Below are positions 13,633 to 17,266 of a DNA stretch of 64,000 nt, piece by piece. A program made the translations under genes and the position numbers. The DNA comes from Mycobacterium decipiens (GTDB taxonomy: Bacteria > Actinomycetota > Actinomycetes > Mycobacteriales > Mycobacteriaceae): assembly GCF_963853665.1 (NCBI RefSeq), contig NZ_OY970459.1:2170001-2234000 (forward strand). The letters run 5' to 3'. Each line of letters begins with the position of its first letter. Position 1 is the stretch's first letter. Below the pieces are notes generated by a model that was not told the origin of the DNA, ran no database searches, and worked only from the letters and a program-made list of their open reading frames with translations.

Positions 13633-13778
13633 CCCGGCGACGAGGCGGGCCGCGGGACGCGGCCCGCCCGAGGAGCGGGGCGGTCGGGTTCGGTCCCGGC
13701 GACGAGGCGGGCCGCGGGACGCGGCCCGCCCGAGGAGCGGGGCGGTCGGGTTCGGTCCCGGCGACGAGGCGGGCCGCG
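13633..13778. repeat. 62-bp tandem repeat with strong internal hairpins (2.35 copies)
   Basis: Two exact 62-base copies begin at 13633 and 13695, and a third begins at 13757 but breaks off after 22 bases. Each full copy contains GCGGGCCGCG and its reverse complement CGCGGCCCGC separated by three bases, so every copy can fold into a ten-pair GC hairpin. The array lies between the divergent mptB and sufR genes, about 80 bases before the sufR start. It is VNTR-like: copy number should vary between strains and could affect either promoter. Copy boundaries are seen directly; functional effects are inferred. Confidence 0.9.
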
Positions 13779-13862: not shown

Positions 13863-14620
13863 AAATCCCGTCCGAGCTGGGTTCCCGCCCTGCGGTCGCA
13901 GCGGGCCCGGCAGCCGCAGCTGCCGGGTCGGATGGTCACACCCGGCGCGCCATCGTGCGGCTGCTGTTGGAGTCGGGATCGATCACCGCCGGCGAGATTG
14001 GCGATCGGCTGGGCATATCGGCCGCCGGCGTGCGGCGGCATCTCGATGCGCTGAACGAAGCGGGCGACGCCGAATCCGTGGCGGCTGCGACATGGCAGCA
14101 GGTGGGACGCGGGCGGCCGGCAAAGCGGTACCGGTTGACCGCGGCTGGCCGGGCCAAGCTCGACCATTCCTACGACGACTTGGCATCGGCAGCCATGCGG
14201 CAGCTGCGAGAAATCGGCGGTGAGGATGCGGTGCGCACGTTTGCCCGGCGGCGTATCGATTCGATCTTGGCCGGCGTCGAGGCGGCCGACAGTGCCGACG
14301 ATGCGGCGCTCGAGGCGGCCGCCGAACGGATCGCCAGTGCGCTCACGCAAGCGGGCTACGTCGCCACCACTACCCGGGTCGGCGGACCGATCCACGGTGT
14401 GCAAATCTGCCAGCATCATTGCCCGGTATCCCATGTCGCCGAGGAATTCCCAGAGTTGTGCGAGACCGAGCAGCAGGCCATGGCCGCGGTGCTGGGCACC
14501 CACGTCCAGCGGTTGGCGACCATCGTCAACGGAGATTGCGCCTGTACCACCCACGTACCCCTTTCTCCGGCGCCCAGCCCGCGTCCACCCACCACGAGCA
14601 CCAAAGGAGCGTCTCGATGA
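13859..14620 (+). CDS. sufR: Iron-sulfur-sensing repressor SufR
   Basis: A 253-residue regulator at the head of the SUF operon. Residues about 25-90 form a winged helix-turn-helix ([20 protein letters not shown]) followed by the wing sequence [13 protein letters not shown]. The C-terminal half has the cluster-binding cysteines in [19 protein letters not shown] and a fourth in GDCACTTH. Holo-SufR represses suf; loss of its cluster derepresses it. GTG at 13859 is six bases after CACACT, so the message is probably leaderless and the operator overlaps the start. The stop overlaps the sufB ATG (ATGA), so repressor and first assembly gene are translationally coupled. Confidence 0.95.
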
Positions 14621-16062
14621 CACTCACGCCAGAAGCGTCCAAGACCGTCGAATCTTTGACCCAGGAAGAAGCGATCGCTTCGCTGGGCAGGTACGGCTAC
14701 GGTTGGGCGGACTCCGACACCGCAGGCGCCAGCGCGCAGCGCGGGCTCTCCGAGGCGGTGGTGCGCGACATCTCCGCGAAAAAGAATGAGCCCGAGTGGA
14801 TGCTGCAATCTCGGCTGAAAGCGCTGCGCATCTTCGAGCGCAAGCCGATGCCGCGCTGGGGGTCCAACCTCGAGGGCATCGACTTCGACAACATCAAGTA
14901 CTTCGTGCGCTCCACCGAAAAGCAGGCCACGAGCTGGGATGATTTGCCGGATGACATTAGAAATACCTACGACCGACTTGGAATTCCGGAAGCTGAAAAG
15001 CAGCGTCTGGTTGCTGGTGTAGCGGCCCAGTACGAATCCGAAGTGGTTTATCACCAGATCAGGGAGGATCTAGAGGCTCAAGGTGTCATATTCTTAGACA
15101 CTGATACTGGTTTGCGGGAACACGAGGACATATTTAAGCAATATTTCGGAACGGTAATTCCTGCTGGCGACAATAAGTTTTCTGCGTTGAATACAGCAGT
15201 TTGGAGTGGCGGCAGCTTCATATACGTTCCGCCGGGTGTGCACGTCGACATCCCGCTGCAGGCCTACTTCCGGATCAACACCGAGAACATGGGCCAGTTC
15301 GAGCGCACGCTGATCATCGTCGATGAGAACGCCTACGTTCACTATGTGGAGGGCTGCACGGCTCCCATTTACAAGTCGGACTCGCTGCATTCGGCGGTCG
15401 TGGAGATCATCGTAAAGCCGGGCGGCCGTTGCCGTTACACCACGATTCAGAACTGGTCGAACAACGTCTACAACCTGGTTACCAAGCGCGCTCGTGCCGA
15501 AGCCGGCGCCACCATGGAGTGGGTCGACGGCAACATCGGGTCCAAGGTGACCATGAAGTATCCGGCAGTCTGGATGACCGGTGAGCACGCCAAGGGCGAG
15601 GTGCTGTCGGTGGCTTTCGCCGGCGAAGACCAGCACCAGGACACCGGCGCCAAGATGCTGCACCTGGCCCCGAACACGTCGAGCAACATTGTGTCCAAGT
15701 CGGTGGCGCGCGGCGGCGGCCGCACGTCCTACCGCGGGTTGGTGCAGGTGAACAAGGGCGCACACGGGTCGCGTTCGAGTGTGAAGTGCGATGCGTTGTT
15801 GGTCGATACGGTCAGCCGCAGCGACACCTACCCATACGTCGACATCCGTGAGGACGACGTCACCATGGGCCACGAGGCCACCGTGTCGAAGGTCAGTGAG
15901 AACCAGCTGTTCTACCTGATGAGCCGCGGGCTGACCGAGGACGAGGCGATGGCGATGGTGGTGCGCGGCTTTGTCGAGCCGATCGCCAAGGAGCTGCCGA
16001 TGGAGTATGCGCTGGAACTCAACCGGCTGATCGAGCTGCAGATGGAGGGCGCGGTCGGATGA
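14617..16062 (+). CDS. sufB: Fe-S cluster assembly scaffold SufB, intein-free
   Basis: A 481-residue scaffold that, with SufC and SufD, builds Fe-S clusters in the cytosol. The beta-helix core and C-terminal helices are intact (ending near [16 protein letters not shown]). In M. tuberculosis an intein interrupts this protein before the conserved Cys of EGCTAPIY; here that Cys (codon 247, 15355-15357) lies in uninterrupted sequence, so no splicing is needed. Codons about 109-205 are strikingly AT-rich although the protein sequence stays normal. AAAGGAG precedes the ATG, which overlaps the sufR stop. SufB is expected to be essential because SUF is the main Fe-S system in mycobacteria. Confidence 0.97.
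14941..15230 (+). other. Low-GC recoded segment inside sufB
   Basis: By direct count 14941-15240 is about 48% G+C (145 of 300), with 15121-15180 at 40%, inside an operon that is otherwise about 65%. Codons such as TTA, AGA, ATA, AAT, TTT and GTA cluster here and are rare on either side. The change is abrupt at both ends (about 14941 and 15230). The encoded residues ([17 protein letters not shown] to SFIYVPPGV) are the standard conserved SufB sequence, so this is synonymous-style replacement rather than a new domain. It ends about 125 bases before the M. tuberculosis intein insertion codon. Confidence 0.85.
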
Positions 16063-17266
16063 CCTCTGACACAACAACTGTCGAGGGATCCTCACTGACC
16101 GCGCTGAACAAGGGGGAACTGTTCGCCTCCTTCGACGTCGACGCTTTCGAGGTACCGCACGGCCGCGACGAGATTTGGCGGTTCACCCCGCTGCGGCGGT
16201 TGCGTGGCCTGCACGATGGATCCGCACCGGCCACCGGCAGTGCTCAGATCAGCGTCAGCGAGCAGCCTGGGGTGCGGGTCGAGACCGTGCGCCGCGGCGA
16301 CCCGCGGCTAGGAGGGGGCGGTGTTCCCGCTGATCGTGTTGCCGCTCAGGCATTTTCGTCGTTCAACTCCGCGACGCTGGTCAGCGTCGGCCGAGACACC
16401 CAGATCACCGAGCCGGTGAACGTCGCCATCACCGGTCCCGGCGCGGGCGCGGTTGCCTACGGGCACCTGCAGATCCGCGTCGAGGAGCTGGCCGAGGCGG
16501 TCGTAGTCGTCGACAACCGGGGCAGCGGAACCTACGCCGACAATGTCGAATTCATTGTCGACGACGCTGCCCGGCTCACGGTCGTGTGGATCACCGACTG
16601 GGCCGACGACGTGGTCCACCTCAGCGCGCACCACGCCCGGCTCGGCAAGGACGCGGTGCTGCGACACGTCACCGTCACGTTGGGCGGCGAGGTGGTGCGG
16701 ATGTCGGCCAACGTGCGTTTCTCCGGTCCCGGTGGGGATGCCGAACTGCTGGGCCTGTACTTCGCAGATGACGGCCAGCACCTCGAGTCGCGGTTGTTGG
16801 TTGACCACGCTCACCCCGACTGCAAGTCGAACGTGCTGTACAAGGGTGCGCTGCAAGGAGATCCGGCTTCGTCGTTGCCCGACGCACACACGGTCTGGGT
16901 GGGCGACGTCCTAATCCGCGCCGAGGCCACCGGTACCGACACCTTCGAGGTGAACCGCAATCTGGTGCTCACCGATGGTGCGCGTGCCGACTCGGTGCCC
17001 AACCTCGAGATTGAGACCGGTGAGATCGCCGGCGCCGGACATGCCAGCGCCACCGGCCGTTTTGACGACGAGCAATTGTTCTACCTGCGCTCCCGCGGTA
17101 TCCCGGAAGAGCTGGCCCGCCGGCTGGTGGTACGCGGCTTTTTCGGCGAGATCATCGCCAAGATCGCCGTCCCCGAGGTACGCGAGCGCCTGACCGCAGC
17201 CATCGAACACGAACTGGCCATCACGGAAACCAAAACAACGGAAAAGACGGAAAAAACAGCAGCCTC

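Follow-up and report, generated by a model that had tools for sequence, protein, structure and literature searches.

The sufB gene analysed here carries an AT-rich patch that is probably an old allele class, exchanged between species within a hotspot of intein homing. Comparison of alleles across the genus shows that the AT-rich class goes back to shared descent and that classes have replaced one another. According to the model that we propose, two old allele classes would exist for SufB residues 109-207, and the patch would belong to the AT-rich one. This class would have arisen once, in the part of the genus that we take to be the slow growers, and would since, by recombination between species, have taken the place of a GC-rich class or given way to it on many occasions. 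The exchange would fall in codons ~100-280, which hold three intein homing sites, and we infer that homing may have been its driver. The patch is unlikely to be a recent scar left where this genome lost an insert.

An AT-rich segment within sufB

The window is a stretch of 64,000 nucleotides (G000:C1:2170001-2234000) from a genome of 5.30 Mb on one contig. The product of its sufB gene (Table 1) matches the Pfam families SufBD_N at residues 154-215 (3.5e-8) and SUFBD_core at residues 218-452 (6e-89), and these two regions, together with the suf operon setting, place it as the SufB scaffold of the SUF Fe-S system; the ORFs on its 3′ side are presumably sufD, sufC and sufS. Immediately 5′ of the regulator gene that precedes sufB, at window positions 13633-13778, lies a very GC-rich tandem array, possibly a VNTR, in which a 62-bp unit is repeated 2.4 times with 100% matches.

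Table 1. Features of sufB in the window, and the genomes found to carry the full patch
Feature	Position in window	Strand	Description
sufB	14617..16062	+	481 codons, intact, intein-free; ORF frame 14419-16062, ATG at 14617
AT-rich patch	14941..15239	+	sufB codons 109-207; patch-class allele by GC, segmentation and codons common to 15 other carriers
Stretch of raised conflict	14914..15456	+	codons 100-280, against the sufD/sufC/sufS tree; maxima near sites a and c
Intein site a, empty	15036..15037	+	before Ser141, within the patch; occupied in 25/396 genomes
Intein site b, empty	15213..15214	+	before Ser200, within the patch; occupied in 2/396
Intein site c, empty	15354..15355	+	before Cys247, 39 codons 3′ of the patch; occupied in 12/396
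Codons 233-239	15313..15333	+	IIVDENA in the window; all 12 intein-c genes have IIADE[GD] at 233-238
Full carriers of the patch			window, G341, G091, G188, G074, G352, G117, G219, G023, G064, G094, G222, G379, G045, G015, G329

The original prediction had described a fall to about 48% G+C at 14941-15240 and to 40% at 15121-15180, AT-rich codons in a standard SufB, and an empty M. tuberculosis intein site at the Cys codon 15355-15357. Our measurements agree on all of these points. The G+C fraction is 0.480 at 14940-15239, against 0.61-0.67 in sufB windows clear of the patch, and 24 of the 60 bases at 15120-15179 are G or C. GC3 over the patch is 0.46 (0.41-0.57 in individual bins across codons 109-207), compared with 0.8-0.9 around it, while the encoded protein is ordinary and has both Pfam regions. 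The Cys codon is codon 247, without an intein, and site c, which precedes it, is the site of the M. tuberculosis SufB intein; the original prediction was made without knowledge of sites a and b, which fall within the patch. Rare codons such as AGA, TTA, GTA and ATA occur in the patch class. The edges of the patch are sharp: segmentation by GC3 delimited codons 108-197, with support intervals of 106-112 and 195-209, and codons 109-207 served as the working definition.

Such a dip is unusual within this genome, and it is not unique. We surveyed 864 kb (40 stretches of 20 kb plus the window), with ORFs chosen by a rule of our own, and 409 of the 557 ORFs of at least 200 codons had a GC3 of at least 0.8 outside their lowest 99-codon window. 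The lowest window had a GC3 of 0.47 or less in 4 of these 409; sufB ranked second lowest (0.46) and was the only one of the four with a dip away from the ORF start, the others beginning at codons 9, 14 and 52. A low-GC dip was also observed in a 790-codon gene of the same genome that resembles NADH-quinone oxidoreductase chain 5 (L352:3064-5433, minus strand), with GC3 0.34 over 99 codons from ORF codon 52 and 0.86 elsewhere.

Descent and persistence of the AT-rich class

The genus search covered 396 genomes taken from a larger group, and sufB was read codon by codon in 94 of them and in 9 named records (103 rows). The 94 are a non-random set made up of the window genome, the best matches to the patch, every intein carrier found and other fetched genomes. 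The full patch was present in at least 16 of the 396 (Table 1), a lower bound; in one of these, G329, sufB is AT-rich along its whole length. Partial patches were seen in others, for example G026, G320, G060 and G391. At the same codons, 67 sequences of loci L044-L110, mostly from other actinobacterial genera with some Mycolicibacterium and Mycolicibacter, have a mean GC3 of 0.92-0.96 per bin. The situation that would have spoken against an unusual history, a patch inherited vertically by all relatives, was not found: related species differ in whether they have the patch, and it occurs both with and without inteins. A separate AT-rich dip was observed in L264 (genome G350) and L209, at sufB codons ~168-277 with GC3 0.42-0.57 at 181-271; in a genome that carries intein a it runs through the empty site c, with some patch codons in the 5′ part and a 3′ part that lies beyond the usual patch.

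A tree of the sufB flanks together with sufD, sufC and sufS, made with FastTree from 50 sequences, places the carriers in scattered positions next to GC-rich sisters, and in the tree of the patch the carriers group. The comparison of these two trees, which the original prediction had proposed, thus gave different topologies. AU tests agree: for 15 carriers the flank tree is rejected on the patch sequence (p 0.0005), and so is the patch tree on the flank sequence. In the 50-sequence trees, the divergences, the segmentation and the codon-run tables, alignment at the junctions lets intein ends replace some extein codons (239-246 of intein-c genes, and some between 111 and 140 in some intein-a genes); junction-corrected codons were used for the AU tests, the choice of A or T, the conflict scans, the GC3 fits, the association tests, the site-a mismatches, the change counts in close pairs, the codon conservation and the comparisons of patch identity and nearest sequences. 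Over 14 pairs of a carrier and its sister, the flanks differ at 0.13-0.34 of third positions and the patch at 0.49-0.69; for the pair G117/G071 the patch value is 0.606 and the flank value 0.133.

Compositional convergence might also make AT-rich sequences group in a tree, and we reject it because the carriers share the choice between A and T. At fourfold sites, carriers of different clades have the same A or T in 1259 of 1493 comparisons, where 0.54 is expected. Outside the patch the agreement is 348 of 426 (0.59 expected), as vertical descent would give. Among the 15 carriers AGR makes up 46% of the 69 arginine codons in the patch and 2% of those outside it, and TTA 30% of the 106 leucine codons in the patch and 0.3% outside. 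The features of an interspecies mosaic allele are therefore both present, in that sisters differ in the segment far beyond their flanks and distant species share it by descent. Several genes mix the two classes; in G105, for example, patch codons run only through 180-202, in G158 only through 122-135, and in G240 through 129-135. Since the carriers lie scattered beside GC-rich sisters and their codons are common by descent, replacement of one version by the other through recombination has happened repeatedly.

A different history would have the patch ancestral in slow growers and vertically inherited, with the GC-rich species having lost it through recombination with a GC-rich allele. Divergence among carriers is deeper in the patch (0.396) than in the flanks (0.246; 105 pairs), as this history would have it; the averages come from a set of 20 GC-rich sequences and 15 carriers, from which 15 sequences that were partial, ambiguous or bore intein a had been left out. 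Nor was any recent transfer caught among nine carriers, whose patches reach at most 87% identity with that of a carrier from a different clade. The rejection of the flank tree by the patch data argues against ancestral presence; it is not decisive, because the patch has only 297 sites. The patch changes state at least 12 times on the 103-row tree, a number that is compatible with both histories. On balance we consider ancestral presence unlikely and favour exchange between species. Divergence between patches is as deep as that between the species sampled, and the patch therefore looks like an exchanged allele class and not like a fresh scar. The patch of the window is at most 85.5% identical to any other that we read, so that it was not recently acquired from a sampled species.

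The composition of the class appears to be stable. In a two-state, non-stationary likelihood fit to 73 third positions of 15 carriers, the equilibrium GC3 of the patch was 0.45-0.50, with a 2-lnL interval of ~0.33-0.60 on the patch tree and 0.35-0.65 on the flank tree; the flanks, fitted on these two trees, gave 0.85-0.88. Forcing the patch to 0.90 cost 23.6 and 14.3 lnL with midpoint roots. The mutational equilibrium of M. smegmatis is given as AT 0.43, that is GC 0.57 (PMC12725619), and because the fitted interval includes this value the patch behaves as if its composition were set by mutation alone. It would stay AT-rich because the force that lifts GC3 to ~0.88 elsewhere in the gene does not act there. 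Amelioration towards host composition was thus not found in the fit to the 15 carriers. Counts of AT-to-GC versus GC-to-AT changes in the patch of close pairs are few and discordant, with 3 versus 4 for G074/G091 and 5 versus 4 for G341/G188, and 11 versus 3 for the sister pair G023/G064, a counter-case that resembles decay. Parsimony counts were dropped as a measure of bias and replaced by the likelihood fits because they gave 30 versus 201 in the flanks, an artefact of the rare state.

Selection on the nucleic acid itself, through an RNA element, an internal promoter or slow codons, could also keep a segment AT-rich. The third positions of ATT123, GTT132, GCT133, GTA135 and GGT165 are invariant in 14 of 14 compared carriers, and AGA149 is kept in 13 of 14, as such selection would produce. 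Against it, the patch has no Rfam match and no promoter-like site, 4 of 68 predicted pairs covary (covariation term +0.65, nine carriers), and fourfold and sixfold synonymous codons are conserved to no greater extent in the patch (0.64) than in the flanks (0.66). A structured RNA, an Rfam family and an internal promoter were rejected on these scans, and we regard selection of this kind as very doubtful.

A donor closer than the host's own relatives was found neither among the genomes of the order nor among the phages, plasmids and viral contigs searched. The best match beyond the genus is 76% (239 genomes of the order, of which at least 28 lie inside the genus), phages reach 67% over most of the query with one match of 72% over 30% of it, and the best plasmid match is 73%. 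All of these are below the 79% at which GC-rich mycobacterial alleles match the patch. The three best of 44 viral contigs are nearer to GC-rich mycobacterial alleles (0.77) than to the carriers (0.71), in a comparison that covered L100-L110 and three viral loci. Composition alone would speak for a phage, a plasmid or a low-GC organism as a recent source, which we therefore hold to be extremely improbable, and the entry from a lower-GC donor suggested in the original prediction is not supported as a recent event, the patch being at a low-GC equilibrium with no fitted decay. As a separate observation, H3, H4 (Staphylococcus phage phiSP44-1) and many of L273-L305 have a fragment of sufB at the end of the viral contig, often at the same offset, a recurrence that suggests prophages integrating at or near host sufB.

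Intein sites and recombination in sufB

All three intein sites are empty in the window (Table 1). Inteins a and c occur together in four genomes, and the two genomes with intein b (3.3 Mb) are, we assume, M. leprae-like. In one tested example each of intein a and intein c, a LAGLIDADG domain scored above the cut-off. Intein c is present in 7 of the 16 full carriers and in 5 of the 380 other genomes, an association with an uncorrected p of 3e-8; after correction for the tree, about 3 of 6 independent pairs are informative and p is ~0.25. Among the five other intein-c genes, G391 has a partial patch, G105 (inteins a and c) has its run of patch codons as a remnant of the 3′ end, and G236, G167 and G392 (also a and c) have 2, 1 and 1 of the 30 diagnostic patch codons, respectively. 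None of the 16 full carriers has intein a or b and none of the 25 intein-a genes has the full patch, so that the same allele with one of these inteins was not found in relatives. The two intein-b genes, L216 (G115) and L217 (G075), have 5 of the 6 diagnostic codons at 185-202, adjoining site b, and 7 and 3, respectively, of the remaining 24.

An exclusion of intein a from the patch was considered and dropped: the intein is present in 0 of the 16 carriers and in 25 of the 380 other genomes, with a Fisher p of 0.61 and a median p of 0.125 for tree-corrected pairs. Likewise, resistance of the patch to homing at site a is unconvincing: against the 36-position site-a consensus the 16 carriers have on average 7.1 mismatches, the 25 intein-a genes 3.9 and a further 56 genes without an intein 4.2, and the window itself has only 4.

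The original prediction offered, as its main reading, that the patch may be the trace of an intein once present at site c of this genome and later lost, which would have left a 5′ co-conversion tract. The concentration of intein c in full carriers would fit such a loss, as would the partial patch of G391 and the remnant in G105, and a tree conflict of the kind that such a tract would leave is present. Several observations argue against it. A lost intein should leave converted sequence beside its site, and the altered sequence ends 39 codons away. The window lacks the motif found at codons 233-238 of every intein-c gene (Table 1), and no intein-c haplotype was seen next to its empty site in a comparison with these 12 genes; this is a weak test because the motif is non-specific, IIADEG occurring also in the intein-free G237, G026 and G329. 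Over codons 210-280 the six sequences nearest to the window are without intein c (one, G357, has intein a). We hold a footprint of this origin to be distinctly unlikely, with only moderate evidence from these comparisons that no site-c intein was lost in the window genome.

We then consider where along the gene the exchange assumed in the preferred model would have taken place. sufB was scanned against the tree of sufD, sufC and sufS (49 taxa, 99-codon windows, AU test); every window was rejected by the AU test, so that only the sizes of the conflict are informative. The conflict rose from 130 lnL at codons 10-108 and 188.5 at 35-133 to 420-659 across eight windows, the first at 60-158 and the last at 235-333; it was 281 at 260-358 and 94-145 from start 285 on. 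Windows of 60 codons, applied to 35 intein-free taxa, gave maxima of 336 lnL at 110-169 and of 260 at 235-294; for the 26 taxa having neither an intein nor the full patch, these were 138 and 137 lnL. A finer scan of the 26 taxa gave 118 lnL at centres 140-164 and a second maximum at 248-260, with 134 at 260. Sites a and c lie at codons 141 and 247, and site b has no conflict peak in these scans. In the 26-taxon scan no comparable peak was found in sufC (26-59 lnL) or sufS (25-81 lnL). A peak as high as that of sufB was observed in sufD (123 lnL at centre 188, and 148 at 160-219 with 60-codon windows), at codons ~150-225 or window ~16506-16733; we know of no intein in sufD. The peaks near sites a and c are suggestive, not conclusive, as evidence from sequence that homing drove the exchange. 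The interpretation in the original prediction is thus supported in part, by the conflict between patch and flank trees, by the differences among related species and by these peaks near sites a and c.

Intein-linked recombination in sufB is plausible. Intein endonucleases would cut empty alleles, and repair from a foreign, intein-bearing allele may have copied the flanks along with the element. The allele classes would have been swapped together with inteins, or without a lasting gain of one.

Mosaic housekeeping alleles arise by recombination between species, penA of Neisseria being an example. There, as in sufB, foreign segments have been replaced inside an essential gene; in sufB, by contrast, no drug selection is apparent and the protein has hardly changed. 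The co-conversion tracts of homing introns in angiosperm cox1 are like the sufB case in their divergent flank beside a homing site and their tree conflict; the canonical 3′ tract is minimally 3-21 bp, some being extended, and one putative intron loss with the tract retained is reported (PMC3192709). These tracts are short and touch the insertion site, whereas the sufB segment of 300 bp spans two sites, ends short of the third and recurs as an allele class in species without the element. Mobile introns of yeast mitochondria likewise have excess variation near homing sites with no donor found, for which the authors' candidates are co-conversion from outside donors or mutagenic repair (PMC5378118). 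The yeast variation lies within one species and within 70 nt, while the sufB pattern lies between species, over ~180 codons, with a sharply bounded AT-rich allele. Haloarchaeal MCM inteins (PMC10643990) share with sufB several close sites in one gene and converted flanking residues, but the excerpts describe no compositional patch. Mycobacterial SufB intein sites vary between species (PMC5050341, PMC8891592), the M. leprae intein being named SufB-b (PMC5050341); the excerpts of these two papers do not address the DNA composition of intein-free sufB. In the literature entries and extracts covered on sufB/pps1 inteins, homing footprints and mycobacterial intragenic recombination we recognised no description of the patch.

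Three other intein-bearing genes were compared. In dnaB from 40 genomes, the two bins that cover codons 402-441 have the lowest mean GC3 (0.67), the next lowest being 0.77, and the second dnaB intein site, at about codon 403, falls in these bins; in this table 3 of the 40 genomes lack codons 242-401 and the intein flags are incomplete for the second site. Individual AT-rich dips at dnaB codons 382-421 were observed in L397 (G045) and L395 (G352), with GC3 0.25 and 0.40, respectively, at codons 402-421 and the second site empty. In 10 genomes, recA has a shallow dip near its intein site and gyrA has none.

A bolder and, in our judgement, rather improbable extension is that the AT-rich class is a self-maintaining 'shield' allele, so divergent that strand invasion, homing and GC-biased conversion between the classes are suppressed. 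Divergence around sites a and b would then protect the essential sufB from inteins a and b, the segment would have stayed near mutational equilibrium for as long as slow growers have existed, and dnaB, with AT-rich dips at its second intein site, would offer another example.

If the model of exchange at homing sites is true, inteins would mark essential genes durably, with recombination hotspots and divergent allele classes, in species that lost them or never kept them. The patch would be a natural example of a foreign-looking segment that does not ameliorate, which speaks against taking odd composition as a sign of recent transfer. Mycobacterial inteins figure in discussions of drug targets and of stress sensing, and the finding would bear on how they enter and leave sufB.
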